From: Paenibacillus dendritiformis
GTDB taxonomy: Bacteria; Bacillota; Bacilli; Paenibacillales; Paenibacillaceae
Assembly: GCF_021654795.1 (NCBI RefSeq)
Contig: NZ_AP025344.1
Coordinates: 5,766,501 to 5,830,500 of the forward strand
Length of the DNA: 64,000 bases
Direction of reading: 5' to 3'
Shown: positions 2,414 to 31,206 of the stretch, one piece after another
Layout of the letters: each line of letters starts with the position of its first letter
How positions within the stretch are numbered: position 1 is the stretch's first letter
Program-made: the position numbers and the translations under genes
The notes under the pieces: generated by a model
Seen by the model: only the letters and a program-made list of their open reading frames with translations
Told to the model about the DNA's origin: nothing
Databases searched by the model: none

Positions 2414-4450
2414 CTACCGTAACTTCCACACCCCCATGACTGCGCTGAAGGATGTTCCGTTACGCGTTATTATGGCCAGTTTATTGTAGCCGTCATCTGT
2501 ATAAACTGCCACAAATGCCTTTGTCTTGCTGAGCCAAGCTCCTGTACCCAGGATACTGTCTACTTTGCCACTCGCCAATTGGAAGAGTTTTGTGCCCGTA
2601 TCAGATAGTATAGAGATAGGGTCACGACCATTTATGATAAATATATTTGCCCCATCTCTGCACACATCAATTGCGTAAGCAGCATCTGCATTTGTTACCT
2701 TATTTTTTGATATCCTTGTACCATCGAGGTTATAGACATAAAGATAGTAATCAGTAGATCCGCCGTATGTGGCAAATATCGCCACATTCTCGCCAACAGC
2801 GCCTTGCTTGTCTTGCAAATTCATGGAGTTCTCTCCTGCATCGGCTGCTAACGGCGTATCTCTCACGACAGTTCCCTGTTGATTAACTTCCCGCAGTACC
2901 ATATTAGGTGCTGTTACTATCCCGGTTTGTACGACAAAGAGGAAATTGTCATTGCTGTTGATAAACCCTTTACCGTTGTTATTGCCTGCTTGACGGTTAT
3001 ACTTCGATAGGAATGCTTCAGAGATGTCCAGCCCGCCTGCGGCTTGCCGGATGCCTCTAATTTTGTTGGCCAGTACCGCCCAGCTATCACTTGTGGACGC
3101 AGATCCTCCCAAGGAGTTGATGGCGTCCACCGTCTGTTGCTTGGCATCAACTCCAGATTGCTTTGCCGCTAGAGCTTCGTCGTAGGCTTTTTTGACGGCG
3201 TTTGCTGTGGCAGCCAACGTTGATGATGTACTGTTGAGAGCATCCGAAAGTTGAACAACGCCCTTGGCTCCAGTCGAGGCAGATGGTAAACGAGCGGCCA
3301 CAATTGTTCCAGAAATGATATCAGAGGCATCATGCGTGTGTATCAAAGGTGCAGCATATGCCTTTGCATTGGTCTCGGCAGCGTCACAATCTACTTTTCG
3401 AGCGATGTGCTCATCCTCTGTAGGGGCCCCAACCTTTGCTTGTCCCGCACTATCTCGTCTAATGATCCTATTGGCGGTCGCCTCTTCAGTTGCGCCGTGG
3501 ACAAGCGTGGCGTTCTTGTGCGAAGTCAGTGACCCATCTAGTTCCCCTATTCCATTTACATGTTCTGGCGACATCAAGCCGCCCGTTGTTGAAGTCGCAT
3601 ATGGGATCACGTCCGTTCCGCCTGGGAGGTGTGTTTCTGCGTGCGGCCCGGGCGTTGCGTTTCCTGTGGCTGTAACTTTAACCTCACTCGTGCTAGGGTC
3701 CGTTGTTATTGTAATCCCTGTGCCGCCAGCAATCCGTAGGGCGTCAGTCTTTGTCTTAGCGGTTACATCCCCCTGACCGGTTACCTTGACGGCTGAGAAA
3801 GCGTTCTGATTGACCTCCGCCCCTGCTTGTATGCCATTCAGTTTGTCGTGGTCATCCTTTGTGACGTGTATGTTGGCATCCGCTTTGTGTGCGTCAAGAT
3901 CATCCTGGACGGTATCGACCTCTGATTTTCGGGCAACGTCGGTTTTTGCTGATGGAGTTGCTGCTTTAAACCTTCCCGATGCGTCACGCTGCACGAGTGT
4001 TCCCGGGGTTGCGGACGCCGTGCTCTCGTCAAGTTTGGCCTTATCGCTGGCGGGCATCAACCCCTTGGTTGTTGCTGTCGCCTCATCTGTGCTCGCCTTA
4101 GCGTTCCAAGCTGCTTTTTCTGTGTCAGACACAAACCGATTATTTGCATCCTGCGCGATGATGGAAGGCGGATGCGTTGCCGGATGGACATAATGATTAG
4201 CCCTTTCCTCTATTCCATCCAACTTAGCCTTATCGAGCCCTGTCATAAATCCGGCCAGTCCATTAGGTACAGCATTGGCATGAGCCGCGCCACCAGTTCC
4301 GATATGCGCATTCAGTTTCTCGTCTGAGTACGCCTTGGCGTTTGCCTCTGCCTTGTCTGCCTTTGCCTGTGCCCCTAATGGTGTTTCCCATTGGGACTCA
4401 ACCTGACCGGCAATGTCTTCGCTTGTATTGCGCCATGGGTAACGGCTCAT
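2414..4450 (-). CDS. Phage fibre protein (head or tail fibre)
   Basis: 678 residues from the ATG at 4450, preceded by AAAGGTGG; an upstream ATG at 4513 would overlap the adaptor gene and is not used. The first 450 residues are built of low-complexity fibre repeats: alanine- and aspartate-rich segments, repeated KLDGI/KLNGI-type units (AKLDGIEERANHYVHP, DKLNGIQAGAEVNQN), TTKGLMPASDKAKLD and collagen-like or H-x-H(D) turns such as HTHDASDI. Such units form long trimeric shafts. The last 200 residues (from about GGLDISEAF) are a distinct globular part that reads as a receptor-binding or propeller-like tip. Gene order puts it between the adaptor and XkdX-like genes. Confidence 0.85.
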   Translation of the reverse strand: MSRYPWRNTSEDIAGQVESQWETPLGAQAKADKAEANAKAYSDEKLNAHIGTGGAAHANAVPNGLAGFMTGLDKAKLDGIEERANHYVHPATHPPSIIAQDANNRFVSDTEKAAWNAKASTDEATATTKGLMPASDKAKLDESTASATPGTLVQRDASGRFKAATPSAKTDVARKSEVDTVQDDLDAHKADANIHVTKDDHDKLNGIQAGAEVNQNAFSAVKVTGQGDVTAKTKTDALRIAGGTGITITTDPSTSEVKVTATGNATPGPHAETHLPGGTDVIPYATSTTGGLMSPEHVNGIGELDGSLTSHKNATLVHGATEEATANRIIRRDSAGQAKVGAPTEDEHIARKVDCDAAETNAKAYAAPLIHTHDASDIISGTIVAARLPSASTGAKGVVQLSDALNSTSSTLAATANAVKKAYDEALAAKQSGVDAKQQTVDAINSLGGSASTSDSWAVLANKIRGIRQAAGGLDISEAFLSKYNRQAGNNNGKGFINSNDNFLFVVQTGIVTAPNMVLREVNQQGTVVRDTPLAADAGENSMNLQDKQGAVGENVAIFATYGGSTDYYLYVYNLDGTRISKNKVTNADAAYAIDVCRDGANIFIINGRDPISILSDTGTKLFQLASGKVDSILGTGAWLSKTKAFVAVYTDDGYNKLAIITRNGTSFSAVMGVWKLR

Positions 4451-5205: not shown

Positions 5206-6165
5206 CTATTCTACCTTGTGGCCGTAGATGAACGAATAGTTCGTATATCCATACGCCCAACGGCCGATAGCTTTATATTTGGCTACTTCTGTATCGAAAT
5301 CGGTCATTGTGCCGTTTTCAACTTTCCGTCTCCATTGCCAGATGTTGAACCGTTTCATTCGGGCGGAATCTACTGCGAACCAGTTTTTGCGGTACTTCGG
5401 CGAAATGAACGGATTGACAATAACTTTGATGTTGCCCATGTACATGTTCGAATCGAAGTTATTGCTGCCCGGCTCATATTTTGGCAGGTCGGCGTCAGGC
5501 AGCCCAGCGATCTTGAATGCTGCCCGGGCATTGTACGGAGCGACAATCAGCGTGTCAGGAATGACAGCCAGCGGATTGCCGCGATCGTCTTTCCATTCCT
5601 GCATAGCAACGGCCGTTTCATCCCACGAATCAATTGTAAGCGGCTTGTTCCCAAGGTTGGACTGTACATCGGTGTCGTTCGTCGGGCTATATGGATGATC
5701 GGCAGCACACAACGGCTTTCCATCTGGACCCAAATAGTTATCCATCCGGCCGCGCCAGTTAGGCCCTGTGCCGACAAATGCATTATTCAGGAACTCAACA
5801 CCCTGCAACTGCTGCGTCTTGTATACAGCATCCGCCAAGGAAGCAATTCTACGCTTAATCTCAGTCAATTTAAGGTCATCGACAAAATCCTTTTCAATGA
5901 TTCGTCCGTCTGAGAACTTCCGGTTTTTGATGACCTTCTGCCACAACTCATCTACATCTTCGTAATAGACCTGATTGTTCGAATAGCTCCATTCTTCCAT
6001 CAGGCCCTCTGCGCCGATGCCTTCGTAACTCTCCATATCTTTGTTCGATGTCGTAACGTTGTACAGCATCGGAATATAGTCTTTCTTGTCTTTCTGCTCC
6101 AATGAGTACAGTTCCTTAAAGATTGGTTCCAGTACTCGCGGATCCCAACGAAGTTTAGTTTGCAT
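5206..6165 (-). CDS. Phage major capsid protein (HK97-fold, gpT-like)
   Basis: 319 residues with a good start (AAGGGGG ten bases before the ATG). An N-terminal helical part (residues 1 to 110) leads to the segment PLCAADHPYSPTND, then a spine-like helix (TAVAMQEWKDDRGNPLAVIPDTLIVAP) followed by NARAAFKIAG and a beta-rich end. The H-P-x-S and D-D-R-G-x-P-(L/I)-x-V-x-P-x-T-L-(I/L)-V signature is typical of coat proteins of the Mu gpT-like group of the HK97 fold. Position after scaffold and decoration genes agrees. It would form the icosahedral shell. The exact family name would need a profile search. Confidence 0.85.
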   Translation of the reverse strand: MQTKLRWDPRVLEPIFKELYSLEQKDKKDYIPMLYNVTTSNKDMESYEGIGAEGLMEEWSYSNNQVYYEDVDELWQKVIKNRKFSDGRIIEKDFVDDLKLTEIKRRIASLADAVYKTQQLQGVEFLNNAFVGTGPNWRGRMDNYLGPDGKPLCAADHPYSPTNDTDVQSNLGNKPLTIDSWDETAVAMQEWKDDRGNPLAVIPDTLIVAPYNARAAFKIAGLPDADLPKYEPGSNNFDSNMYMGNIKVIVNPFISPKYRKNWFAVDSARMKRFNIWQWRRKVENGTMTDFDTEVAKYKAIGRWAYGYTNYSFIYGHKVE

Positions 6166-7656: not shown

Positions 7657-9762
7657 CTAAGGCAACATAGGGACATTGCCCTGCTGCGCTATATTCATTT
7701 GATTGGACATGTCATGCATAAGCTTGATTGCTTCCATGTCCATCTTTTGCTGCTGAATAGATTGATTGAATTGTTTGTCTGCCTGTTCTTGCTGTACACG
7801 CTGATCGGTCATCTGAGCCAACGCTTGTTGCAATGCTGCGTTCTCCTGTTCAAGCTGCTGCGCCTGCTGCTGGGCCTGTACAAACTGCTGCTGTAGTCCT
7901 GCCTCCTGCTCTATTCTCCGCTGGATGACATCCATAGGTTCCATGCGGCCCGTTTGAATGACAAAGCGGACTGCCTCCGCATCAATCATCGGGAGGCCAG
8001 TAATAGGGTCCTTGGCATTTAACAAATTGAATGCTAACTGCAGCCAGTACTCGCGATCCTGTGGCTTGTCTACCCCGATATGCACGTTGATGTCAAACTC
8101 GGGTACAAATTCTTCCTGTACCGGACGTACATCCGGCATCATCTCGCCCGTTTCCGGGTCTGGTATTTGCTCACCAACTTCATATTGAGATTCAACCCGG
8201 CTTATAATTGAATCCCTACTTATAGACACATTTCGACCTGTAACGCGCGCGATTCTTTCATTGGTATAAAACTGGGCTATTAGCTCCACATACTGGGTAA
8301 ACACATCAACAAGCGCCTCGCTTATCAGGTCAGACACGGTGTTGAGGCGCGTCCCCGCAGCAGCCATAAGAGCCTTTGCCTGCTCCCCCGATGTTACCCT
8401 GGAATCAGCTTGACCATTAGAGCTATCAAACTGTCCCGGTATCTTTTGTAACATCTCGTCGTAATAGTTAAGCATGTTAAATACCGTGCTCGGGACGTTT
8501 ACTCCCTGCAGTTCTTTGACCCCATTCAAGGAGCCTGTACGCACGGGTAACATCGCACCTTCCATGCTCCTTTGTTCCTGCCACACTCTCGGCTTCGCGA
8601 TGGCCCCTTCTTCGTACATGATTGCGCTGTTTCCTTGTTTGGCCATTGTGGCAATTGCTATTTCAGCGTATTTGTTCTTAAAGATCTGCGGCTTAATCAT
8701 GTCACGCATGAAGCCCTTGCCCCACAGGTTGCCTTCCTCAGGATATAAGGTACGTGCTGTGAAAGGGTACTGCCCGTGATCGTATACATACGCCTTGTGT
8801 TCCAGATACACGCCCGATGTGCTGATATATATACAATGCACGCCCTCCATACTGCCGGATGCCTTCGCAAACATCTCGGACGGGTCAATGCCTTGCGAAA
8901 GCTTCTCTTCGGCCAACTCCCGGAATAGTTCCTTGTCTTCCTTGGATACCAACTTAGGCAATCCTCTGTACCAGTATTCAATCAGGCCCGATGTCTTCTC
9001 GCTTACGGCCGTACTCATGGATGACTCGCCACCCGTTGCATCGTACGTATCCGTGCTGAAAATCTCGACATCCGCTGACACGTTATCAGGCAGCACCTTT
9101 GTGCCTTGCTTCGGCCATCGTCTCTTGAAGTATTCCAATGGTCGCCGCGTGTGGATGATGATCGCCGACATGTCCTGTAAGTGGATAAAGTCCGTCACAC
9201 GCGGATCGGGAAAGAAACTGCCCAAATCAACCGGAAGAATATCATTGCGCCCCTGCCAGCGATGCATACCGCGGCCGCCCTCTACGGTTGGATCAAATAT
9301 CGTCTTGTATATGAGCGGTCCATGTATGACGCAACGCCGGACCGCCCTTGTATGTTTGTGCCTGAATTTAATCTGGCGCAACTCATACGGCATAAAGTCG
9401 TTCAGGTCCCGCGCCTTTTCCTCGTCTGCCGGCTCCATCGCCGTATAGTCCGGGTATGGCATCCATCCCGTCAGTTTGCCTACGATGGATTCAATTTGAC
9501 TGAATGCCACATTCTCCACCGCATCCGGTCGTAGTTTGGATACAGCCTCACTACGAAGCCCGCGCCAATGGTCCCCCATGTAGAAACGCTGCTCTTGCTG
9601 CCAGATGCTTTCCATCGGCTGCCGCGCAGCTTTAAAAACCTGATAATCCTGATATACGGTATCCCATAGTTCCTGCTGTTCGAGCGTGTTCGGGTTTGTG
9701 TTGTCCTGCTTTTCGCTGGACGCATCGGAAAATATACCTTTAAACTTATCCAGTATCTTCAC
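7657..9762 (-). CDS. Phage portal protein, P22-like size
   Basis: 701 residues from a GTG that overlaps the upstream stop (GTGA). A wing/stem body (YQVFKAARQPMESIWQQEQRFYMGDHWRG, and RRCVIHGPLIYKTIFDPTVEG) fills residues 30 to about 560, and the last 80 residues are glutamine-rich coiled coil (QQQFVQAQQQAQQLEQENAAL), like the long barrel of P22 gp1 (725 residues). Most tailed-phage portals are 400 to 500 residues, so the length itself points to the P22 type. It forms the 12-fold ring through which DNA enters and leaves. Terminase genes lie upstream, as expected. Confidence 0.85.
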   Translation of the reverse strand: MKILDKFKGIFSDASSEKQDNTNPNTLEQQELWDTVYQDYQVFKAARQPMESIWQQEQRFYMGDHWRGLRSEAVSKLRPDAVENVAFSQIESIVGKLTGWMPYPDYTAMEPADEEKARDLNDFMPYELRQIKFRHKHTRAVRRCVIHGPLIYKTIFDPTVEGGRGMHRWQGRNDILPVDLGSFFPDPRVTDFIHLQDMSAIIIHTRRPLEYFKRRWPKQGTKVLPDNVSADVEIFSTDTYDATGGESSMSTAVSEKTSGLIEYWYRGLPKLVSKEDKELFRELAEEKLSQGIDPSEMFAKASGSMEGVHCIYISTSGVYLEHKAYVYDHGQYPFTARTLYPEEGNLWGKGFMRDMIKPQIFKNKYAEIAIATMAKQGNSAIMYEEGAIAKPRVWQEQRSMEGAMLPVRTGSLNGVKELQGVNVPSTVFNMLNYYDEMLQKIPGQFDSSNGQADSRVTSGEQAKALMAAAGTRLNTVSDLISEALVDVFTQYVELIAQFYTNERIARVTGRNVSISRDSIISRVESQYEVGEQIPDPETGEMMPDVRPVQEEFVPEFDINVHIGVDKPQDREYWLQLAFNLLNAKDPITGLPMIDAEAVRFVIQTGRMEPMDVIQRRIEQEAGLQQQFVQAQQQAQQLEQENAALQQALAQMTDQRVQQEQADKQFNQSIQQQKMDMEAIKLMHDMSNQMNIAQQGNVPMLP

Positions 9763-10352: not shown

Positions 10353-11810
10353 TTACCAAAATCCTTGTATGGTTGGTGTATCATCGTCGTCATCGTCATC
10401 GAAGTCAGAACGTCTCCCGGGCAATGCCTCCGGCGTCGCTGACCATGCGGATTCGCCATTCCCGGGCGTCGGCTGACTCATAACCCAATACCTTAACGCA
10501 TCCGGTATATGGTCGAGACTGTGTGCCGCCACGTCCTCTACCTGCTTTTCATCGTGCATCATGGCCGGAATGGCCTCTATAGCCTTGATGCAGGTGGAGA
10601 ATATCTTCAGGCGCGCCGTCTTGTATCGCTCCCCTGTCACATGGTCAATGCGTTCTTCAACGTGCAACCATTCCCTCAGTCTTTTCCATCCGTTGACACG
10701 CTCTTTTTTGGCCTGTATAAGCGGCACACCTTTGGTCGCGAATATCTCCGCTGGCGTGATGTTCTCCGTTTTGGCCTTATTCCAAAAGCTTGTATCAGCT
10801 ACGTTGTACTCAAATCGCTCTGACACTGGCGTATTTAGATGTACGCGCTCTACCTGTTCGCTTGTCAGCAGCTTTGTTTGTGCCAATTCTCTATACAGAT
10901 ACCCCGTGCCATCTGGAGCCAAGGCAATCCACAAACACACGAATGGGTCAGTATACCCTTCATCAAGTGCCCGGTACCTTTTCCAGTCCCGAGGTATTTC
11001 GAACGGCTCTACGACGTGCACGGCGCGGCTGAACTCACTGAAATATTGCCCGGCGAACACGTCCCAATCCCCCTCAAGGAGCTGCTTGCGTTCCACGTCC
11101 GGCAACGCCAATAGGCGGGCCAAATAGCCCGGATCTGACTGGACCAGGGCTTGATTGTCATGTACATTCGCGGGGATGAATATCCTGCTGCGTATAATAG
11201 GTTCCCCGGCCTGCGGTGTACCTTCGGGCCAATACAGCGCATTTCCATCGTCGTCCGTCTCTGGAATGTGATAGACCGTCTCAGCTGGGCCAATGGATAC
11301 GAATCGCTTCTTCACCCATGTGTGGCCCACGCCTCCCGGGTTGGTCGTACTCTTGACGCTGCGGGGATATGGCTTACTACCGCGCAGCCGGGAAAGCATG
11401 TACTTGTACCATTTTTCTTCAAACTGGGTCAGCTCTTCCCAGCGGATAACGTCGTATTCTGCACCTTGATAGTTCATATAGTTGGCGTCATTGTCCCAGT
11501 AAGCCAACTCTATGACGCTACCATTTATAAATGACCACTCATGTTTGGACGCATTGTATTTGCATAACTCTTTGGGGTAGACCTGCAGTGTACGTGCTAT
11601 AATGGACCGCTGCAAGTCCGGGTAAGTACGCCGGAATATAATCTGCCGGCTGCCGGGATACTGGACAGCGTATTTCAGTGCGTCCCATATGGTCGCTTCC
11701 GACTTCCCACCTCCAGCGGCTCCGCCGTACAGTATCTCATCTGCTACCGTCTGATGGTACACCTGCTGCCGAGGCTGTGGTTTGTATGGAATGACAATTT
11801 TATTACTCAT
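10353..11810 (-). CDS. terL: Phage terminase large subunit (TerL)
   Basis: 485 residues. The ATPase domain shows Walker A GGAAGGGKS (residues 29-37), an arginine-rich IIFRRTYPDL strand (57-66), a Walker B-like YDVIRWEEL (119-127) with its catalytic glutamate, and the coupling motif STTNPGG (154-160). The nuclease domain has the acidic residues expected of an RNase H fold: Asp283 in RALDEGYTDPF, Asp339 in YNVADTSFW, and Asp433/Asp437 in DHIPDALRY. It packages DNA into the procapsid through the portal. The start overlaps the terS stop by eight bases. The C-terminus has an Asp run (DDDDDD). Confidence 0.97.
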   Translation of the reverse strand: MSNKIVIPYKPQPRQQVYHQTVADEILYGGAAGGGKSEATIWDALKYAVQYPGSRQIIFRRTYPDLQRSIIARTLQVYPKELCKYNASKHEWSFINGSVIELAYWDNDANYMNYQGAEYDVIRWEELTQFEEKWYKYMLSRLRGSKPYPRSVKSTTNPGGVGHTWVKKRFVSIGPAETVYHIPETDDDGNALYWPEGTPQAGEPIIRSRIFIPANVHDNQALVQSDPGYLARLLALPDVERKQLLEGDWDVFAGQYFSEFSRAVHVVEPFEIPRDWKRYRALDEGYTDPFVCLWIALAPDGTGYLYRELAQTKLLTSEQVERVHLNTPVSERFEYNVADTSFWNKAKTENITPAEIFATKGVPLIQAKKERVNGWKRLREWLHVEERIDHVTGERYKTARLKIFSTCIKAIEAIPAMMHDEKQVEDVAAHSLDHIPDALRYWVMSQPTPGNGESAWSATPEALPGRRSDFDDDDDDDTPTIQGFW

Positions 11811-12378
11811 CCTTACTCATCCCCGCATCAAAAATTACTTGCAACGGTCCGCCATCCTGTCCAGCCAGTTCCACCTTATCCTTGAACATCCCCAAATGGC
11901 GCCCGATCTTCTCTAACGCCGACACCTTATCATGCAGCTTTAAAGATATGCCGTATTTGGTTTCACAAATCTCCGCCACTGCATCCATTTTTACGCGATC
12001 AATGCCGTCTGTATCAAATAGTTCTACGCTTTGTACCATATCGAAGATAGGCACTATCGTTTCATTGCCTTCAGCATCCGTAACCGTATTGCGTTCAACC
12101 ACTCTTTCAGACGTACTAACCCTCAGGTAGTCAGTTATATTAGCAAAGCCTATCTTAGCCAATTCCTGCAACACCCTGTCTGCTGTAATCTCCGTCCGCT
12201 TTGCTCGTGCGTCCATAGCCTCCTGTATAGCCTTCTGAATGTCTGGTTTTGTTAGGTTCTCTTGTCCTATCTTCCGCGCCGTTTTTGCGCTGTATCCTGC
12301 CCTGATTGCCGCTTGTGTGGCATTGAGGTCTATCAGGTACTCCTGGACAAATGCCTTCTGTTTGGCCGTCAATGCCAT
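11803..12378 (-). CDS. terS: Phage terminase small subunit (Terminase_2 type)
   Basis: 191 residues from the ATG of MALTAKQKAFVQEYL; an ATG three codons earlier sits inside the AAAGGAG site and is rejected. The N-terminal segment LTAKQKAFVQEYLIDLNATQ followed by AAIRAGYSAKTARKIGQ is the DNA-binding signature of this family. The middle (KRTEITADRVLQELAKIGFANI) is the usual oligomerisation helix. It recognises the packaging site and hands DNA to TerL, with which it overlaps. A terminator for the upstream gene lies only 22 bases before the start, so the late promoter is probably further upstream or overlaps it. Confidence 0.93.
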   Translation of the reverse strand: MALTAKQKAFVQEYLIDLNATQAAIRAGYSAKTARKIGQENLTKPDIQKAIQEAMDARAKRTEITADRVLQELAKIGFANITDYLRVSTSERVVERNTVTDAEGNETIVPIFDMVQSVELFDTDGIDRVKMDAVAEICETKYGISLKLHDKVSALEKIGRHLGMFKDKVELAGQDGGPLQVIFDAGMSKDE

Positions 12379-15679: not shown

Positions 15680-16996
15680 TTAGCCCGCACCCTGTCCCAT
15701 AGTGCCCAAATCAACGAATTTGCTATAATTCTTGAGATAAAGCATTTCGAACATCCCGGTTCCCGTATTCCTGCCCTTGGCGACATTGATTTCGACAATG
15801 TTCTTTTTCTCGGTTTCCGCATCGTAATAGTCATCCCGGTATAGAAACATAATCTGATCTGCATCAAACTCGATCTGTCCGGATTCCCGAAGGTCGGACA
15901 TCATTGGCCGCTTATCCTGCCGCTGCTCAACGTTTCGGCTCAGCGAGCTAATGACGACAATGGGACAATCATTTTCGCGGGCAATCTGTTTTAACTGGCC
16001 GCTTATATACCCGACTTCTTCCGTCTTGTTGGCGAATCGCTTCCCGCCCTTAATCAATTGCAGATAGTCGATGTATATAATGATTCGACCGTGTTTCTTC
16101 TTGAAGGCCTGTACCTTTGCCCTGATATCTTGGATTGTCGCGCCTGGAGAGTCATCAATGTAAATCGGCAAAGTTGCGATCATGTCCCGTGACATTGTGT
16201 ATTTGCTCCAGTCGTAATCTTCAAGGAATCCCGTTCGTAATTTCATACCGTCGATATTCCCCTCTGCTGCAAGCACACGCTCCGATACAGGTAAGTCGGG
16301 CATTTCCAAGCTGATTATGCCAACCGCGTCCACCGTGCCCGATTTTGCAGCCTCCCTCGCATCGTTCAGCATAAACGCTGTTTTCCCGACCGATGGACGA
16401 GCCGCTATTATAATCAGGTCTTGGTTCTGGTACCCTCCTGTTAACTTATCAAGCACGGAACTGGCCGTTTTTACGCCCGTCAGCCCCTTTTTACTCTGCC
16501 GCTCAATCAGCATGTCTTCATGGTCCGTTAATATCTCCCCAATAGGCCGGAACGTCTTTTCAGGGGCGATTTCCTTCAGGAGAACAGATGCGCTCTCCTG
16601 AATCGTCGCTATTAACTGTTCGGCGTTCTCGGCTGCCTCACTCTCGTTTAGCAACTCCCGTAGAGTCTTAACAGCAGTCCGCCGAAGGCTGGCTTCCCTA
16701 ACTCGCTCGATGTAAAAATCAAATGTCCGAAGCGAAGGTACTGCCGCCCCTAACTTCATGAGATACGAGACGCCGCCAACGTCTGTAATCCGTTCTCCAA
16801 GATGCTGTACGATTGACATAGGTTCGATCGGCCATTCATTCTCCTGCATCTCAAGCATTGCCTCGTATAAGACTTGATGGCCGGCGCTATAGAAATCTTC
16901 GACCTTCAGCTTACACTCACTCAGCAGCTCCGCTTTTTTCAGGATGCTTCCTAACACAAATTGTTCAGCTTCATGGTTCACGATCCCGTTATTCAT
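15680..16996 (-). CDS. Replicative DNA helicase, DnaB family
   Basis: 438 residues. The N-terminal DnaB domain (residues 5 to 110) begins VNHEAEQFVLGSILKKAELL. The RecA-like core has Walker A ARPSVGKT (199-206), motif EMPDLPVSER, Walker B IYIDYLQL (307-314) and the VVISSLSR and DLRESGQIE motifs near 350-380. It would unwind the fork for phage replication. Its start overlaps the stop of the loader-like gene in an ATGA, so the two are made together. Length matches phage DnaB proteins (about 440). Confidence 0.95.
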   Translation of the reverse strand: MNNGIVNHEAEQFVLGSILKKAELLSECKLKVEDFYSAGHQVLYEAMLEMQENEWPIEPMSIVQHLGERITDVGGVSYLMKLGAAVPSLRTFDFYIERVREASLRRTAVKTLRELLNESEAAENAEQLIATIQESASVLLKEIAPEKTFRPIGEILTDHEDMLIERQSKKGLTGVKTASSVLDKLTGGYQNQDLIIIAARPSVGKTAFMLNDAREAAKSGTVDAVGIISLEMPDLPVSERVLAAEGNIDGMKLRTGFLEDYDWSKYTMSRDMIATLPIYIDDSPGATIQDIRAKVQAFKKKHGRIIIYIDYLQLIKGGKRFANKTEEVGYISGQLKQIARENDCPIVVISSLSRNVEQRQDKRPMMSDLRESGQIEFDADQIMFLYRDDYYDAETEKKNIVEINVAKGRNTGTGMFEMLYLKNYSKFVDLGTMGQGAG

Positions 16997-20721: not shown

Positions 20722-21552
20722 TCAAAACAATGTTTGCCCATTTGTTTCCTCAATTTTTCGCAAAAGATTATTTGAAGGAGTCCACAAAGGAACATATTTT
20801 AATCCTCGTTCAAAGTCCTTTAGGTAGGTGTTGCTATAGGAGTTTACTTTGAAGTACTCCTTATAATCGTTCCATAGAGCCGTATACACTTCGCTTCTCA
20901 GACTTCTATCACGGTATGCGTTTGACTTCTTGCCGCCTATGATGTTTACGACTCTAGCGTTTCCAGCCTTCTTTAACTCTTGTTGTTTCGCATAATCAAT
21001 GGTGGTCTTGTTCTCCAAATTATCAACGCGAGCATCTAGCTTTTGAATCTTTACATCTTGAATAAAAATGGCTTGCAGCTCAGGGCTTAGATTCTCCGGT
21101 CTAAATACATCCGGCAAGAAGGCTTCAGCAAGCACATCCTTAGCACGTAGTTGGTATTCGATTAAACGCCGTGCAACTTCTGGTTGTCGTTCCTGTATGT
21201 TAGGAGTGATTGAAATCTTAGCAAGCCATAAAGGAAGGAAATCAAGTTCAATGACTAATACTTCCTGTAATCCGCCATTGGTAGGGAGCGTCATATTTGA
21301 CGCGCCTTGATTCAGCACGACATCAGATTGTATTTTTTTGACTTGAGTATCGGAATGATTCTTATCAAACCCGATTCCACGACAGACCCATTTAACCCCT
21401 ATATATACCTTTCCATCATTTGCTCTAACTCCCAAAATCTCAGCCCCGTGAAACGGAACCATCTTTTGTTCTACCGGGTAGATACTGCTTGCTTCTTTCT
21501 CCTGCTTGTCCATCCAGTTGTTCATGGACTCATTGAATTGATCCTTGTTCAA
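20722..21552 (-). CDS. Phage antirepressor, P22_AR_N plus ORF6C domains
   Basis: 276 residues. Residues about 25 to 130 (VPFHGAEILGVRANDGKVYI, GVKWVCRGIGFDKNHSDTQ, VIELDFLPLWLAKISITPNI) match the P22 antirepressor N-terminal domain. The C-terminal 110 residues (LDARVDNLENKTTIDYAKQQ, then a YRDRSLRSEVYTALWNDYKEY stretch) fit ORF6C. Such proteins inactivate or bypass the repressor and favour the lytic cycle. The start overlaps the preceding stop in an ATGA. With Rha and the short BRO-like protein it is one of three antirepressor-type genes here. Confidence 0.88.
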   Translation of the reverse strand: MNKDQFNESMNNWMDKQEKEASSIYPVEQKMVPFHGAEILGVRANDGKVYIGVKWVCRGIGFDKNHSDTQVKKIQSDVVLNQGASNMTLPTNGGLQEVLVIELDFLPLWLAKISITPNIQERQPEVARRLIEYQLRAKDVLAEAFLPDVFRPENLSPELQAIFIQDVKIQKLDARVDNLENKTTIDYAKQQELKKAGNARVVNIIGGKKSNAYRDRSLRSEVYTALWNDYKEYFKVNSYSNTYLKDFERGLKYVPLWTPSNNLLRKIEETNGQTLF

Positions 21553-22601: not shown

Positions 22602-23306
22602 CTACGCGATCCGCTTCAGTCTCGAACGTTCAAAATACTGAGTCAGCGTCCGCTTCCTATCATCGAACTCTAGCCCGGCCACCAACAATCCAATGTCCAC
22701 ACGCTGCAGCATTTCTACAGCCTGGATCTGTTCAGTTTTCAGGTAAGGTCGAATTGACTGGCCCTTAGCTATTCCGTTGGCTTCTCGGAATTTCTTAGCG
22801 CTGACCCCAAGCACGATCCGATTAATCATGTCGCTTTCGTTGCTGAAATGGTAATGCATTGGCACTTCCTTTGAATCCATAATCGCTTGTGTAAATGCCG
22901 GGTGTTCGAGTCTGGCGTTATTAAGAGATTGAATAAATTGCTCCATAGCTTCGAAGCGGTTTAACAGGCCGATTTTAACGACAGTAGCCTTTTCACCAGT
23001 AAAGCCCATGACAATAAGCATAGATCCCTTTCTTGTCATTAAAACTTCCCTATTTCGCTTTCCTGAAGCATCCTTATACTTGCCCTCAAAAAAATTCTCT
23101 GAGTAAAATTGTTCTATTGTCTGTCCAGCAAGCAAAATCATCAGTTCTTTACTCAGTCCAATTTTGGATTGAGCTATTTCATCGATAGAACGAAGGACGT
23201 GGCTGTGTTGCCTGTCAAACTCATTAGCTACTTGACGGCTGCTGTATAGCGCTTTTCCATTCATCTCATACAACATGCATTCCGTATTAAGGATAAGTTT
23301 GCTCAT
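22602..23306 (-). CDS. Rha family phage regulatory protein
   Basis: 234 residues. Residues 8 to 110 (LYEMNGKALYSSRQVANEFD, RQHSHVLRSIDEIAQSK, NREVLMTRKGSMLIVMGFTG) match the Rha N-terminal domain, which is related to antirepressor folds and interferes with lambdoid growth in some hosts. The C-terminal 100 residues are a separate helical domain (FSNESDMINRIVLGVSAKKF). It lies between the two copies of the DUF771 cassette, so it may have arrived or been bounded by their duplication. Confidence 0.85.
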   Translation of the reverse strand: MSKLILNTECMLYEMNGKALYSSRQVANEFDRQHSHVLRSIDEIAQSKIGLSKELMILLAGQTIEQFYSENFFEGKYKDASGKRNREVLMTRKGSMLIVMGFTGEKATVVKIGLLNRFEAMEQFIQSLNNARLEHPAFTQAIMDSKEVPMHYHFSNESDMINRIVLGVSAKKFREANGIAKGQSIRPYLKTEQIQAVEMLQRVDIGLLVAGLEFDDRKRTLTQYFERSRLKRIA

Positions 23307-24397: not shown

Positions 24398-24763
24398 GTG
24401 AATACGAATTTAGGGGCTAGAATAGCCGAGTTAAGGAGAAGTCGAAATCTTACCCAATTTAAGCTCGCTGAATCGCTTAACGTTTCAACGAGCATGGTTG
24501 CAATGTGGGAAACAGGGCGCAGAGATCCCAGCACAGAAATGATCTCGATTCTAGCCAATTTTTTTAATGTATCTAGCGACTACTTGTTAGGTCTTACGGA
24601 TGATCCCACAAATGAAGTTAAGACAGAAACCCCCCAAAGCATAAGTGCTTGGCTAAGATCAACTGGTACGGATTTAACTGAAGATGAAAAAGAAGTTCTT
24701 GCGGAGGATATGGAAGAATATTTCAAAATGAGAAAAGCTCGCATACTTAAAAAGAGACAATAA
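24398..24763 (+). CDS. Prophage repressor, Xre/ImmR type
   Basis: 121 residues from a GTG at 24398, chosen because GGAAGG lies ten bases upstream and the helix-turn-helix (LGARIAELRRSRNLTQFKLA, ESLNVSTSMVAMWETGRRDP) starts at once; earlier ATGs would add a hydrophobic stretch read from the operator region. After the DNA-binding domain comes LANFFNVSSDYLLGLTDD and a short helical tail. There is no LexA-type self-cleavage domain, so relief probably depends on the ImmA-like peptidase encoded next, as in ICEBs1. Three operators flank its start. Confidence 0.9.
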   Translation: MNTNLGARIAELRRSRNLTQFKLAESLNVSTSMVAMWETGRRDPSTEMISILANFFNVSSDYLLGLTDDPTNEVKTETPQSISAWLRSTGTDLTEDEKEVLAEDMEEYFKMRKARILKKRQ

Positions 24764-25574: not shown

Positions 25575-26762
25575 ATGGCAAGTTTCCAGAAGTACAAAAC
25601 CAAAGACGGTTACAAGTGGATGTACAAGTATTATGGAGCAATTGATCCCCTAACCGGCAAGAAGAAACCGTCAACCAAAAGGGGGTTTAATTCAAAAAAG
25701 GAGGCCCAACTGGACGCCGCCATAGTGGAGCTACAGGTAGCCAACGGAACATTTGTTAGCGAAAAGGATACTACATTCTCCGAATTCGCCCCCAAGTGGC
25801 TAAAAATTTATAGCAGCACCAAGAATGTTAAAGTCTCCACAGTTCAATCAAGAGAAGTATGCATTCGAAGATTACTGAAGTCTTTTCAACACATTATGTT
25901 AAAAGATGTTACCAAGGAAATGTATCAGAACTACTTAATATCTTTGAAAGAGAGTGGTTATTCAAAAGAGACGATCACAAGCACCCACGCCACTGCCAAG
26001 ATGCTTTTCGGAAAGGCCCACGAATTAGATATAATCAAAGCTAATCCAACTGAAGGGGCAACAATCCCGGCTTTTACTAAAACTGTAGAGGAACTTGAAA
26101 AGGAAGAGGAGCTCCCGAAGTATTTTGAGAAGAACGAATTGGTCCAGTTTCTACAGATAGCCAAAGAGCATGGGATGGACAAAGATTATGCTGTTTTCCT
26201 AACCCTGGCTTATACGGGCATGCGCGTGGGGGAATTATGTGCCTTAAAGTGGAAAGACGTCAATTTCGAGGAGAAGAGTATAAGCATAACAAAGACTTAC
26301 TGGAACAAGACAAACAACACTGTTAAATATACCTTGAATACCCCGAAAACAACCACCTCAAAGAGAGTGATACTAGTAAACGACATGGTTGTTGAGGAAT
26401 TGAAAAAATTAAAGGCCCTTCAAAATAAAGTGAAGATGCAATACCGAAAGGAATACTACGACGGAGACTTCATCTTTGCAAAACTAACTAAGTTCTATGG
26501 GTACCCTGAAAAGCAGAAAGTTATTGATATGCGTTTGAAAAGATTACTCAAAATATCCGGCTTTAGTGACTCCCTTACCCCGCATTCCCTAAGACATACA
26601 CATACGTCACTTCTTGCCGAGGCTGGAGTAGGACTGACTGAAATCATGGAAAGACTTGGCCAAAAGGACGAGAAGATCACCCGAACTGTTTACCTACATG
26701 TCACCAAGCAATTAAAAAAGGATGCGGTCGATAAGTTTGATAAACTCATCAACAGCATCTAA
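25575..26762 (+). CDS. int: Phage site-specific tyrosine integrase
   Basis: 395 residues with AAAGGAGG before the ATG. Residues 1 to 60 (YKTKDGYKWMYKYYGAIDPL) are the AP2-like arm-binding domain, 65 to 165 the SAM-like core-binding domain, and 180 to 390 the catalytic domain. Visible catalytic residues are Arg217 in TGMRVGE, His337 and Arg340 in HSLRHTHTS, and the nucleophile Tyr373 in TVYLHV; the usual histidine of the LGH motif is Gln363 here (LGQKD). It recombines attP with a site in comFA. It is followed at once by the attachment junction. Confidence 0.97.
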   Translation: MASFQKYKTKDGYKWMYKYYGAIDPLTGKKKPSTKRGFNSKKEAQLDAAIVELQVANGTFVSEKDTTFSEFAPKWLKIYSSTKNVKVSTVQSREVCIRRLLKSFQHIMLKDVTKEMYQNYLISLKESGYSKETITSTHATAKMLFGKAHELDIIKANPTEGATIPAFTKTVEELEKEEELPKYFEKNELVQFLQIAKEHGMDKDYAVFLTLAYTGMRVGELCALKWKDVNFEEKSISITKTYWNKTNNTVKYTLNTPKTTTSKRVILVNDMVVEELKKLKALQNKVKMQYRKEYYDGDFIFAKLTKFYGYPEKQKVIDMRLKRLLKISGFSDSLTPHSLRHTHTSLLAEAGVGLTEIMERLGQKDEKITRTVYLHVTKQLKKDAVDKFDKLINSI

Positions 26763-26811: not shown

Positions 26812-27960
26812 TTATATCAAGGTTTGTCTGGTTAGAGGTAAGACCATCTCCGTCTTCCCCGCCCCGGTCACGGCCCAGAGCAGAAAGGAACCCGTCACGG
26901 GTTGTCCCGAACCATGAGAACGTCCGACATCTATCTCCCGCCGCACCGACGCGATATACCGCAGGGCATCCGTACTGGCAGCCTCCTGGGCCGGGGCCAG
27001 CCCCCACTTCGGGAGACGCGGTCCGAGATCTTCTTCTCGGGCCGCTGTCCCGGACGCTGCCGCCGGAGGGCGGAGGGAAGATCCTGCTACGAGCAGCGAG
27101 CAGGAGCGAATGCGTCCCAGGTTCAGACAGTGCGTGCACGTCCGGCATTCCATGCTGCCGCAGGAAGAGCAGGCCGATACCGTCATATCCTCCGTGCTGC
27201 CGCATCGGTTGCACCGGTACACCGCGGCAGAAGCTGTTCGCCAGCGGGACATCGCCTTGCTTGCCCAGCGCTTTCCCTCTTCCTCCACCGGCATAATGCC
27301 GGCACGAACCTCCAGCCAGCCATGGAGGCAGCCCAGTTGAACGAATGTATGCCTGAGCGGAATCCATTCGTGCCAGCCCTTTTCTTCCATCAGGGAGACA
27401 AGCTCTTCGTCCGAGACGAGCCTGCCCTGCAGCGCTTCAGCCAGCCGCCATGCGTCCGCTTGCAGCGAAGCGCGCGGCGCGCCCCCCGCTTCAGGCAGTC
27501 GATCAAGTGCGGGCGCCCGCCGGGTGACTCTCTCTTCGATCCGGTACACTGCCGCGCTTTCCGCCACCCGATACGCCTCCTGCCGACATTCCTTGACCGC
27601 CTGCGCGTTCGGTTCTGTACCCGGCGCTTCCAAGATCATCACCGTGAACCACTCCTCTTCCCCATGGCGATCGGAATCGGTGAACAGATACAATAATTCA
27701 CGATAGCTATGCAGCGCATCGCGGTAATATTTCGTCCACCCCCGCTTCCCCCACTGATCCATCTCCTCGCACTCGGCGAAGTCCTCCAGCATCGCCAACC
27801 CGATAAATATCGGCAGAGCAGGCTGGAGCACGACCAGCTTCATTCCTCTTCGCTTCCCTCCGTCCTCCGACAGCCAGTAACCTGCATCTACGCGCCAGTC
27901 CAACGTCATCCCCGTATGCCATCCGGTCTCCGTTCTTACGGCGTAAACTCTTACTTGCAC
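26812..27960 (-). pseudogene. comFA: comFA 5' part, cut by the prophage
   Basis: From a GTG start (AAGGAAGGAG upstream) 382 codons read as the N-terminus of the competence DNA-translocation ATPase ComFA. Residues 250-278 hold the ComFA zinc finger (Cys250, 253, 264, 267, 272, 275, 278), and the helicase part starts with Walker A in AVTGAGKTEM (363-372). Seven or eight residues later the family match is lost and a stop appears in phage DNA. Helicase motifs Ia to VI are absent, so this product cannot drive uptake of transforming DNA. The 3' part is predicted beyond the other prophage end. The zinc finger may still fold. Confidence 0.9.
26823..26850. other. Prophage-comFA junction (att region)
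   Basis: The comFA match ends around the codons for MVLPL, at about 26830-26845, so the crossover core lies here. The exact core cannot be set without the sequence at the other prophage end. Confidence 0.6.
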
Positions 27961-28167: not shown

Positions 28168-31100
28168 TTACAGCAGCTTGCTCTTCTTTGCCTTTTGCAA
28201 AAATTTATCGCTCGATTTATTAATCGTCTTTTTCAAGCCGACTCCCAGCACGAACGCAATCCCGATATAAATAAGCAGGATTAACATATGCTTCGTGACG
28301 ACCGGCCACAGAATGCCCCCGACCGCTTCCCTCATAATCGTGATGGCGTGAGTGAACGGCAAAAACGGGTGCAGCTTCTGGAAGAAGGCCGGTGTCATCT
28401 GAATCGGAAAGGTTCCGCCGGAGCTTGCCAACTGGAATACGAGCAGTATGATGGATAATGCTTTCCCGACATTCCCGAAGACGGACACAAGCGTATATAC
28501 GATCGTGACGAATATGATACTGATGTATATCCCAAACAGGACGAACCAGAATTTATGAAGTACATAGGTTTTCAAAAGAAACATATCACCCAGCGTTACA
28601 ATCGTCGCCTGCCCGATGCCTAACGTGACAAACGTGAGCAGCCGGCCGAAATAAGCTTCATAGCTTTTGTACTCATGCTTATTCTCAATATCGACAATCA
28701 GCATCGAAATCAGGAGCAGTCCGCCGACCCACAACGCCAACGTCGTGAAGAACGGCGACATCGCCGAACCATAATTCGGAATCGGGAACAGGTCATGCTC
28801 CTTCAGCAGCACGGGCTCCGCGAAGAAATCACTTTCTTGCTCCGCATCCCCGGTCAGCAGCTTGATGACTTCATCCAAATCGCCCGTTTCTTCAAAAGAA
28901 CGAATTTTGGCGGCAATATCCCTGACCTTTCTGCTAAGCTCAGGGAACTCTCCGTTCACTTTGTCTAATTCCGTCTCGCCCAAGCGAACCTTGTCCTTCA
29001 CCTCGGCCAAGGCCGATTCGATTTTCGGAATCGCGGCGAACAGTTCGTTTTCGATTTTCCGGACGAACTCCAGGCCTTGCCGCGATTTTTCCATCGAACG
29101 GCGGAAACCTGGGACCACATCCTTATCAATCGTCTCAACCGCATTATCGAGGGAGGCAGCCGCATCCTTCGTGACCGAGCTAATCTGATTCAGCGTATCC
29201 TTCGTCGGCTTGTTCGCCTCGCCGGCAAATTCGCTGGCTCGAACTAACGCCTTCGAGATATCTTCCATTCGGCTCTCTACATTCCGCAGCTTCGCAATCA
29301 CATCCTCAATCGCGCCGTCATCCACGGACCTTTTCATGTTTTCCGCGACATCGATGAGTTTGCTGATCGCATTTTGGCCATCCTTCGTGCGCGCTGCCGC
29401 ATTTCGAAGCCGATCTTCTACTTTATTAAAATCTTTGGCCAATAATTTATCCGTCAACTTCACGACGGAAGTAGCGGCATCCTGCAATTTGCCCGATTTG
29501 TCGCGCGCCTCGTTAATGAGCTTCTCGATCGTGCCGCGGTTTGACTTAAAGCCGGGAGCGATGACATTGTCATAGCTGTCAGCCAGTTGGCCCGCCATAA
29601 CCTCGGCCTTGTCCAGGAAGTTTCCAATCAGACGGCGCACAAGCTCTGACACATTGTTGTTTTCAAGCTCCGTATTGATTTTATCCAGCAGCTCTTGCAG
29701 GCTCCCCGCGTTCGTTTTCATGTTTTTCAACATGTCTATGAGCCATTGATAATCCGTACCCGTTAATTTCGAGAGCTCTTCTGCCTTCTCAATCAGCTTA
29801 TCGAGCGATCCCAGGCTATTTTCAAGTTGGCTGGCCGCTTCGGATAAAGAGCCCGCTATCTCCTTCCATTTCTCGGCAAGGGCGCTGCCATCTGCTTGCG
29901 CAAGCTGGTCCTTCGCCTTTTTGATCAGGTCTTGCACGCGGGTTAATTGCTCCCGGTATCGCTTGCCGGCCTGCTCCATATCATCCAGTGCCTTTGTCAG
30001 CGCAGGGACGATGCGATTATCCAGATCCGTCCGGAACTGGCCAATCAGATCATTAATTTTGAGTGCCGTTCGTTGAATTTCCTTCAGCTTGTCCACGGCA
30101 AGCTCTTTATTGTCGGCAACGATGCGGCGAGCTCTTTCCAATTGGTTATTTAATTCTTCCAATTTATTTTTCATATCATACAGCGAGGAGACAATGTCAT
30201 TCATGACCCCGCCAGCGGTTAGAGAATGATTGACGCCCTCGATTCTCGTAATCAGCTTCTGCAATGACCATATCCCTGAATTCAGTTCATCGCTTTTTTT
30301 GCTCAGTTCCTGTTCCACGACACGGAGATCAAGGTTCGAATTAATTGCATCGGTCATCGCCGACATTTCCGTCATCGTGTTTTGCAAAGCCTGCAAATCC
30401 TTTTTGACGACCGGAATGGTCTTCTCAAAGGTTTCGTCTCCCTTATCCAGGAACCGTTCCACATCGGAATCAACAGCCTCTTTTTTCTCTTTTTCGAAAT
30501 CCTTGATTAAAGAAATCGCCGTTTCCGCTTTTTTGATAATGTCGTTCGCTTTTATTAAATCGACTTGGCCTTTCCGAATCATGCTTTCAATTTCCGGAAT
30601 ATTCTCTTCCAATTTGAAAAGATTGTCCTTCATTTTCAAAATCGAAGGCTTGTTCCCTTGCAGTTCCACGCCAATCTCATTGAAAATTTCAAAGATGGCG
30701 CCGTTGGCCTCTTTCACGAAATTGCTCCGGATCGTTGACGTTACCCCCGTCGCCCCGGCCGATGTCACCTTCGGCGCAATTGCGTTCACCTTCTGATTAA
30801 TAAAATAATCTAGTTCGGCCTTCTCAGGGTGACTTGAAATGACAGAGGTTAACCTCTCGGAGAAGTCTTCCGGAATGACGATGGCCGCATAATAGTCTCC
30901 GTGGTTGACGCCTTCCATCGCATCCTCTTTATCCACGAACCGCCATCCTAATTTATCGTTCTCCTTTAACGACTCGATGACCTTCTCGCCCACGTTGATG
31001 CTTTTATCCTGGACCTCGGAACCCTTATCCAGATTGACAACGGCCACGGAGACATCCTTCGTATTGGCGTACGGATCCCAGGACGGAAGAATATTGAACC

Positions 31101-31206
31101 AGGCATATAAAGAAGGGAGAATAACTACCGCCAAAATAACAATAATTGCAGCCGGATTTTTAATAATGTTGCGAAGGTCTGTTATGTAAATTTTCAATAT
31201 ATTCAT
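28168..31206 (-). CDS. yhgE: YhgE/Pip family membrane protein
   Basis: 1012 residues. An N-terminal membrane helix (IIVILAVVILPSLYAWFNIL, about 20-40) leads to the extracellular YhgE domain (DVSVAVVNLDKGSEVQDKS, YYAAIVIPEDFSERLTS), then about 600 residues of charged coiled-coil heptads, and a C-terminal bundle of about five membrane helices of the ABC-2 type (FFTTLALWVGGLLLISMLIV onward). The lactococcal relative Pip is required for phage c2 infection, and relatives occur near type VII secretion systems; the cellular role is otherwise not settled. A promoter lies at 31315-31343 and a terminator follows. It stands alone between comFA and the region upstream of degSU. Confidence 0.9.
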   Translation of the reverse strand: MNILKIYITDLRNIIKNPAAIIVILAVVILPSLYAWFNILPSWDPYANTKDVSVAVVNLDKGSEVQDKSINVGEKVIESLKENDKLGWRFVDKEDAMEGVNHGDYYAAIVIPEDFSERLTSVISSHPEKAELDYFINQKVNAIAPKVTSAGATGVTSTIRSNFVKEANGAIFEIFNEIGVELQGNKPSILKMKDNLFKLEENIPEIESMIRKGQVDLIKANDIIKKAETAISLIKDFEKEKKEAVDSDVERFLDKGDETFEKTIPVVKKDLQALQNTMTEMSAMTDAINSNLDLRVVEQELSKKSDELNSGIWSLQKLITRIEGVNHSLTAGGVMNDIVSSLYDMKNKLEELNNQLERARRIVADNKELAVDKLKEIQRTALKINDLIGQFRTDLDNRIVPALTKALDDMEQAGKRYREQLTRVQDLIKKAKDQLAQADGSALAEKWKEIAGSLSEAASQLENSLGSLDKLIEKAEELSKLTGTDYQWLIDMLKNMKTNAGSLQELLDKINTELENNNVSELVRRLIGNFLDKAEVMAGQLADSYDNVIAPGFKSNRGTIEKLINEARDKSGKLQDAATSVVKLTDKLLAKDFNKVEDRLRNAAARTKDGQNAISKLIDVAENMKRSVDDGAIEDVIAKLRNVESRMEDISKALVRASEFAGEANKPTKDTLNQISSVTKDAAASLDNAVETIDKDVVPGFRRSMEKSRQGLEFVRKIENELFAAIPKIESALAEVKDKVRLGETELDKVNGEFPELSRKVRDIAAKIRSFEETGDLDEVIKLLTGDAEQESDFFAEPVLLKEHDLFPIPNYGSAMSPFFTTLALWVGGLLLISMLIVDIENKHEYKSYEAYFGRLLTFVTLGIGQATIVTLGDMFLLKTYVLHKFWFVLFGIYISIIFVTIVYTLVSVFGNVGKALSIILLVFQLASSGGTFPIQMTPAFFQKLHPFLPFTHAITIMREAVGGILWPVVTKHMLILLIYIGIAFVLGVGLKKTINKSSDKFLQKAKKSKLL

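Follow-up and report, generated by a model that had tools for sequence, protein, structure and literature searches.

Prophage insertion at the Walker A codons of comFA in Paenibacillus dendritiformis, with homologous integrases at the same site in related species

Introduction

Prophages that interrupt competence genes have been published, and comFA is among the genes concerned. In the accessible text of Croucher et al. 2016 (PMC4774983), prophages are reported in comFA of Streptococcus equi, S. suis and the Bacillus cereus group, and a benefit to the phage from interrupting a competence gene is already argued. The integrases of the streptococcal and Bacillus comFA prophages are described there as alike (34.1%), and the Bacillus one is about 44% identical to that of the Listeria comK prophage. 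The title of a reference cited in the same paper states that a nucleotide-site mutant of B. subtilis ComFA loses DNA uptake. Other competence genes are affected as well. Prophage SpST71A splits comGA of Staphylococcus pseudintermedius according to the accessible part of PMC7029219, which also describes the excision switch shown for the Listeria comK prophage. The idea that phages choose competence genes to block their own removal by transformation has so far been represented by scattered examples.

The window analysed here is a stretch of 64,000 bp (G000:C1:5766501-5830500) from the closed, single-contig, 6,547,390-bp genome of Paenibacillus dendritiformis. The original prediction for this DNA was that a prophage splits comFA just after its Walker A motif, and both gene halves and both junctions confirm that it does.

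The interrupted gene

The 5' half of comFA lies on the minus strand, in an open frame from 27960 to 26812 that starts with GTG, encodes 382 aa and ends in AVTGAGKTEMVLPLTRQTLI. Its host part (26854-27960) runs from a zinc-finger-like cysteine cluster to the lysine codon of Walker A, and its last ten codons, which together with the stop (26812-26844) close the truncated protein, are phage DNA. Over 371 residues the frame is 98% identical to the intact protein of a close relative (G014), of which it represents the N-terminal half. In G014 the gene is uninterrupted and forms a 712-aa frame; G011 and G005 likewise have one long frame.

When the C-terminal portion of the G014 protein was used to search the P. 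dendritiformis genome, it recovered the 3' half (match at 5754123-5755085) where this had been expected, beyond the left prophage end. It occupies genome positions 5754123-5755100 on the minus strand, outside the window, lies to the left of the 5' half by 38,259 bp and is 98% identical to the G014 protein. No complete second comFA was found elsewhere in the genome, as the original prediction would have it: the 5' half occurs once and, besides the 3' half, the C-terminal query gave only two weak matches.

The gene is named comFA because of its helicase domains, its cysteine cluster and the order of its neighbours. The full-length G014 relative matches DEAD, ResIII and Helicase_C (Pfam), while the 5' fragment alone has no match to any Pfam or NCBIfam model, and none of the matching family models names the protein ComFA directly. 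The 3' half is followed by genes for a ComF-family protein (TIGR00201, with a score under the model cut-off), YvyF, FlgM and FlgK, the gene order of the B. subtilis comF region. A search for a solved ComFA structure gave 15 matches, none of them ComFA: all are helicases of other kinds, Mfd, RecG and PriA among them. Upstream of comFA, window positions 28168-31206 on the minus strand encode a 1012-aa membrane protein with an apparent resemblance to YhgE/Pip, the phage infection protein of lactococci.

Attachment sites

The competence gene is split at an attachment site, and both halves are present. The attR core, at 26845-26853 on the minus strand, is a 9-bp sequence shared with the attL core at genome positions 5755086-5755094; from core to core the distance is 38,259 bp. 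Read in the sense of comFA, attR is GGGGCGGGGAAG ACGGAGATG GTCTTACC and attL is GAAACAAT ACGGAGATG ATCTTTCC. The nine bases are the codons T-E-M right after the lysine of GAGK, which places the threonine of the Walker A GKT inside the repeat. Within the 124 kb around the locus, this 9-mer occurs only at attL and attR, and a weaker likeness between the two runs on into the phage side (TCTTACC versus TCTTTCC). A short direct repeat had been placed at 26823-26850; such a repeat does exist, but the exact one is the 9-bp core. When the flanks are joined in silico, the halves meet in frame at this repeat, as predicted, to give a single frame of 693 aa, 679 of whose 693 residues are identical to G014. 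The GC content is 47% in the prophage and 52 and 55% in its 4-kb flanks.

That the split is an artefact of assembly is almost certainly wrong. Contig ends do mimic a split in two genomes (G023 and G057), whose cases were rejected as contig breaks and not phage, but the present locus lies on a single closed contig, carries an exact repeat and has the same junction as six other species.

The prophage

The insert, an apparently complete prophage, encodes its own integrase. It fills positions 1-26844 of the window and extends left to genome position 5755086, through holin, amidase and tail-like genes, to the comFA 3' half. Adjoining the comFA junction is a tyrosine integrase with an arm-binding (PF14657), a SAM-like and a catalytic (PF00589) domain (25575-26762, plus strand), and beside it on the same strand are an ImmA-like peptidase (PF06114; 24781-25461) and, by profile match, an HTH repressor-like protein (24398-24763). 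Profile matches on the minus strand identify a Rha/antirepressor-like phage transcriptional regulator (22602-23306), an antirepressor-like protein (20722-21552), a DnaB-like replicative helicase (15680-16996), the small and large terminase subunits (11803-12378 and 10353-11810), a portal protein (7657-9267), a weak major-head-like match in the C-terminal part of its protein (E 2e-12; 5206-6000) and a tail-fibre-like protein (2414-4450). Tail and internal-virion-like proteins, a holin, an amidase and HTH repressors are also matched in PHROGs and Pfam.

The prophage genes were called by a simple script, and among the 38 of 53 that were scanned against profiles no excisionase was recognised. At the left phage end, no promoter able to drive the comFA 3' half was found on that strand. 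The comFA 5'-half region has no match among deposited phages. Two more integrases of the same type, 38-39% identical, lie at G000:C1:5131353 and G000:C1:6526181 and likely mark further prophages or islands.

The exact repeat and the 693-aa joined frame give the locus an anatomy that permits a switch, and a repressor and an ImmA-like peptidase stand beside the integrase. The prophage might, under certain conditions, excise without killing the cell, restore comFA and re-insert, as the accessible part of PMC7029219 describes for Listeria. Such active lysogeny is nonetheless improbable here: precise excision is possible for almost any prophage, ComK was not found in this genome, and both the integrase type and the target differ from those of Listeria.

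Recurrent insertion at the Walker A codons

Prophage insertion at this site (site A) is recurrent in Paenibacillus, occurring in six species besides P. dendritiformis. Within the genus, only 3 of 19 genomes encode an integrase that matches the window's at 93% identity or higher, the same three in which comFA is split; the split relatives are Paenibacillus sp. 2.1 (G007) and P. popilliae ATCC 14706 (G009). In each of the 16 remaining genomes of the genus, comFA forms a single frame of 688-897 aa. Elsewhere in the family, the same codons are split in P. campinasensis (G204) and P. senegalimassiliensis (G102), where the halves lie about 36 kb apart, each on one contig, and in P. xylanilyticus (G188), where they are on two contigs. 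The same attR is found in P. senegalensis JC66 (L114), which comes from another collection than the 394 family genomes.

The same site is used across these species by homologous integrases. A tyrosine integrase homologous to the window's lies beside the comFA 5' half in 7 of 7 cases, with identities to the window's of 97% (G007), 93% (G009), 74% (G204), 51% (G188), 48% (G102) and 48% (P. senegalensis). In all seven, the truncated ComFA frame stops 4 to 11 codons past the core, and where both junctions were read (6 of 6 cases) the same 9 bp recur in attL and attR. The core itself varies with the host's synonymous spelling (ACGGAGATG, ACGGAAATG, ACAGAAATG, ACCGAGATG). Since comFA has little freedom to change these codons, the target offered to the phage is stable across species.

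The phage bodies are much less alike: 4,520 of 38,268 bases align with the prophage of G007, 3,271 with that of G204, 633 with the compared part of that of G102 and none with the compared part of that of G188. Because the phage bodies differ, insertion at site A has been repeated; comFA of the close relative G014 is intact.

A neutral insertion, into a comFA that is dispensable or already unused in the split lineages, would fit with the lack of a detectable ComK and with the phage-free, broken comFA frames of some family genomes. It is very unlikely, as comFA is preserved in one long frame in the 16 other genomes of the genus, and both halves in P. dendritiformis retain 98% identity with the intact G014 protein.

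Survey of the family and a second insertion site

The comFA survey covered best matches in 394 family genomes, of which 5 gave no comFA match. Follow-ups of 15, 36, 80 and 27 genomes, partly overlapping, concentrated on those that gave two matches, scored weakly or had short frames. In G216, G258, G294 and G257, comFA is cut at a contig edge and not split by phage. Overlapping or adjacent pieces with no phage-size insert, read as frame breaks or divergent linkers, were found in G236 and G048 and in G171, G194, G153, G256, G113, G177 and G178; in the latter seven, the two-frame comFA may be a decayed or divergent gene. The accessible part of PMC8370563 reports that P. polymyxa has no comFA orthologue, while ComFA was matched here in 389 of the 394 family genomes.

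In six family genomes (G080, G382, G239, G224, G173 and G238; L063-L072, L087), comFA is split instead at the DEAD-box codons (IIDELDAFPY/H), here termed site B. The insert measures about 37 kb in G080 and about 41 kb in G382. The integrase is readable in three cases, the contigs of G224 and G173 ending before it and G238 offering a single junction. In these three (G080, G382 and G239), a large serine integrase (PF00239, PF07508, PF13408) adjoins the 5' junction, and the G080 integrase shares 55 and 48% identity with those of G382 and G239. Among 20 viral contigs with related integrases, 3 hold a comFA piece that ends at the same place (L257, L260 and L268). L257 and G080 have integrases of 100% identity and may be the same prophage. 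Site B may also represent the Bacillus type of comFA prophage. Taking sites A and B together, comFA is split in at least 12 of the 394 family genomes, a lower bound.

Integrase relatives beside groEL

Relatives of the site-A integrases were found at 73 loci of the named collection, a count that excludes the window. The fetched flank contains groEL in 32, comFA in 6 and neither in 35, the last group including loci truncated at contig ends as well as distant relatives from actinobacteria. Where groEL is near, it is mostly its 3' end that points to the integrase, and a complete GroEL-length frame (542-550 aa) is present in 12 of 19 loci inspected. No tRNA genes were found in 21 loci with integrase relatives. 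Among deposited phages (1,877 records), the nearest integrases are about 50% identical, from P. larvae phages, and none reaches 60%. An integrase of 51-53% identity is additionally found beside groEL in G009 (L050, G009:C328) and G007 (L059, G007:C16), so that comFA-type and groEL-type elements occur together in one genome.

The window prophage is homologous to the groEL-end phages by its integrase, but sits in comFA and not at the groEL 3' end. Its attR has AAACCTTGATATAACAAGGGTT where L118, beside groEL, has AAACCCTTGCTATAACAAGGGTTT, so that a stretch of phage arm is common to both. ATGAT occurs both in the groEL end, GGCATGATGTAA, and in the comFA site, GAGATGATCTTT. From the kinship, the shared arm and ATGAT, we infer a change of target from a gene-sparing to a gene-breaking site, and comFA targeting probably arose by retargeting from the harmless groEL site.

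The integrase tree is rooted at its midpoint and does not fix the direction from groEL to comFA. With all 70 rows in the tree, five changes are required for the comFA label (7 rows), at least four of them forced, with many viral contigs cut at the junction among the other 63 rows. With the 7 comFA and 16 groEL rows alone, two changes suffice and a single comFA clade is not rejected (p-AU 0.265). Several origins of comFA targeting are thus neither demonstrated nor rejected by the tree.

Target availability offers a rival account, in which integrases favour conserved DNA, the Walker A and DEAD-box codons being among the best-conserved parts of the gene, and the loss of transformation is a side effect that brings the phage no benefit. 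Sites A and B both lie in helicase motifs, whose codons are conserved DNA, and comFA is found almost throughout the family (389 of 394 genomes). Yet many genes have equally conserved motifs, and two unrelated integrase types share comFA; the relatives, moreover, use a groEL end and leave GroEL whole in 12 of 19 loci. On balance, this account is rather unlikely.

Consequences for the host

The genome encodes an open 880-aa ComEC frame and PilC/ComGB-like proteins. ComK was not found in it by a search that did find ComK in a B. subtilis control. Because of this, the natural competence of the strain is uncertain, and regulation as in B. subtilis or Listeria is not simply transferable. A ComFA whose Walker A is not joined to the rest is expected not to work. 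For as long as the prophage stays, gene structure predicts a lysogen that has no functional ComFA translocase and transforms poorly or not at all.

The insertion also parts comFC, yvyF, flgM, a flgN-like gene, flgK and flgL (L032:2530-7687, genome 5749030-5754187) from the comFA start. In B. subtilis, read-through from comF into flgM ties competence to motility. By analogy, the separation of the operon could possibly affect motility or flagellar gene expression.

Proposed explanation

The explanation that we regard as probable in its entirety is recurrent integration of temperate phages in comFA, retargeted from groEL and kept by a block of transformation. At this locus a temperate phage of 38.3 kb, equipped with genes for lysogeny, replication, packaging, structure and lysis, is integrated in comFA, its tyrosine integrase presumably having recombined a comFA-like phage core with the codons after the Walker A lysine, as both junctions suggest. 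The 5' half ends ten codons into phage DNA, and the 3' half holds the DEAD box and helicase C domain but has lost Walker A and the start. Precise excision would restore the frame, to judge from the joined flanks. The same codons have been taken by homologous integrases in the six further species, on phages that are mostly unlike one another where compared, and the DEAD box has been taken by another phage group. Since many members of the integrase lineage lie beside the groEL 3' end, targeting of comFA would probably be the product of retargeting. It would probably be kept because the loss of transformation makes a lysogen harder to cure with prophage-free DNA from outside.

A wider reading is that ComFA is under convergent attack in Paenibacillaceae. 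A tyrosine lineage would have moved from the groEL 3' end to Walker A, possibly repeatedly, and unrelated serine integrases would have settled on the DEAD box, both because loss of the motor guards the prophage from replacement by imported prophage-free DNA. This reading is tentative, and its chances seem somewhat short of even.

Comparison with known systems

Parallels had been drawn in the original prediction to the Listeria comK prophage and to pneumococcal prophages, but the closest ones, the prophages in comFA itself (accessible text of PMC4774983), were missed. With those of S. equi, S. suis and the B. cereus group, the present prophage shares a split comFA, an insertion conserved across species and the same proposed benefit, as far as that text goes.

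The Listeria comK prophage (A118 / 10403S type) resembles it in that a competence gene is split and precise excision would restore it, but the target there is comK, which was not found in the window's genome. Its integrase is of the serine type. Unlike the B. cereus-type comFA prophages, with their Listeria-like serine integrase, the window prophage has a tyrosine integrase at the Walker A codons; it is the site-B prophages of G080, G382 and G239 that carry serine integrases. SpST71A likewise occupies a late competence gene, but that gene is comGA.

By integrase, the nearest deposited relatives are Paenibacillus larvae phages such as HB10c2, Rani and Redbud, at about 50% identity, and Geobacillus phage phiOH2 is 49% identical over the whole length. 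The phiOH2 prophage lies beside groES/groEL (accessible part of PMC3744691). The groEL-type phages differ in that 12 of 19 related loci retain a complete GroEL frame, whereas the window prophage breaks comFA.

A tyrosine-integrase prophage at the comFA Walker A site was not found among the papers listed by searches of the open PMC library or in the accessible parts of PMC4774983, PMC7029219 and PMC8370563. As far as searched, the new elements are the tyrosine integrase in comFA, its Walker A site, its presence in seven Paenibacillus species and its groEL kinship, together with the meeting of two unrelated integrase types, each at a motif of its own, in a single gene within one family. Where earlier cases were scattered, Paenibacillaceae combine two unrelated recombinase types, two catalytic motifs of one enzyme and kin at a gene-sparing site, and so offer a matched comparison between a harmful and a harmless target of the same integrase family.
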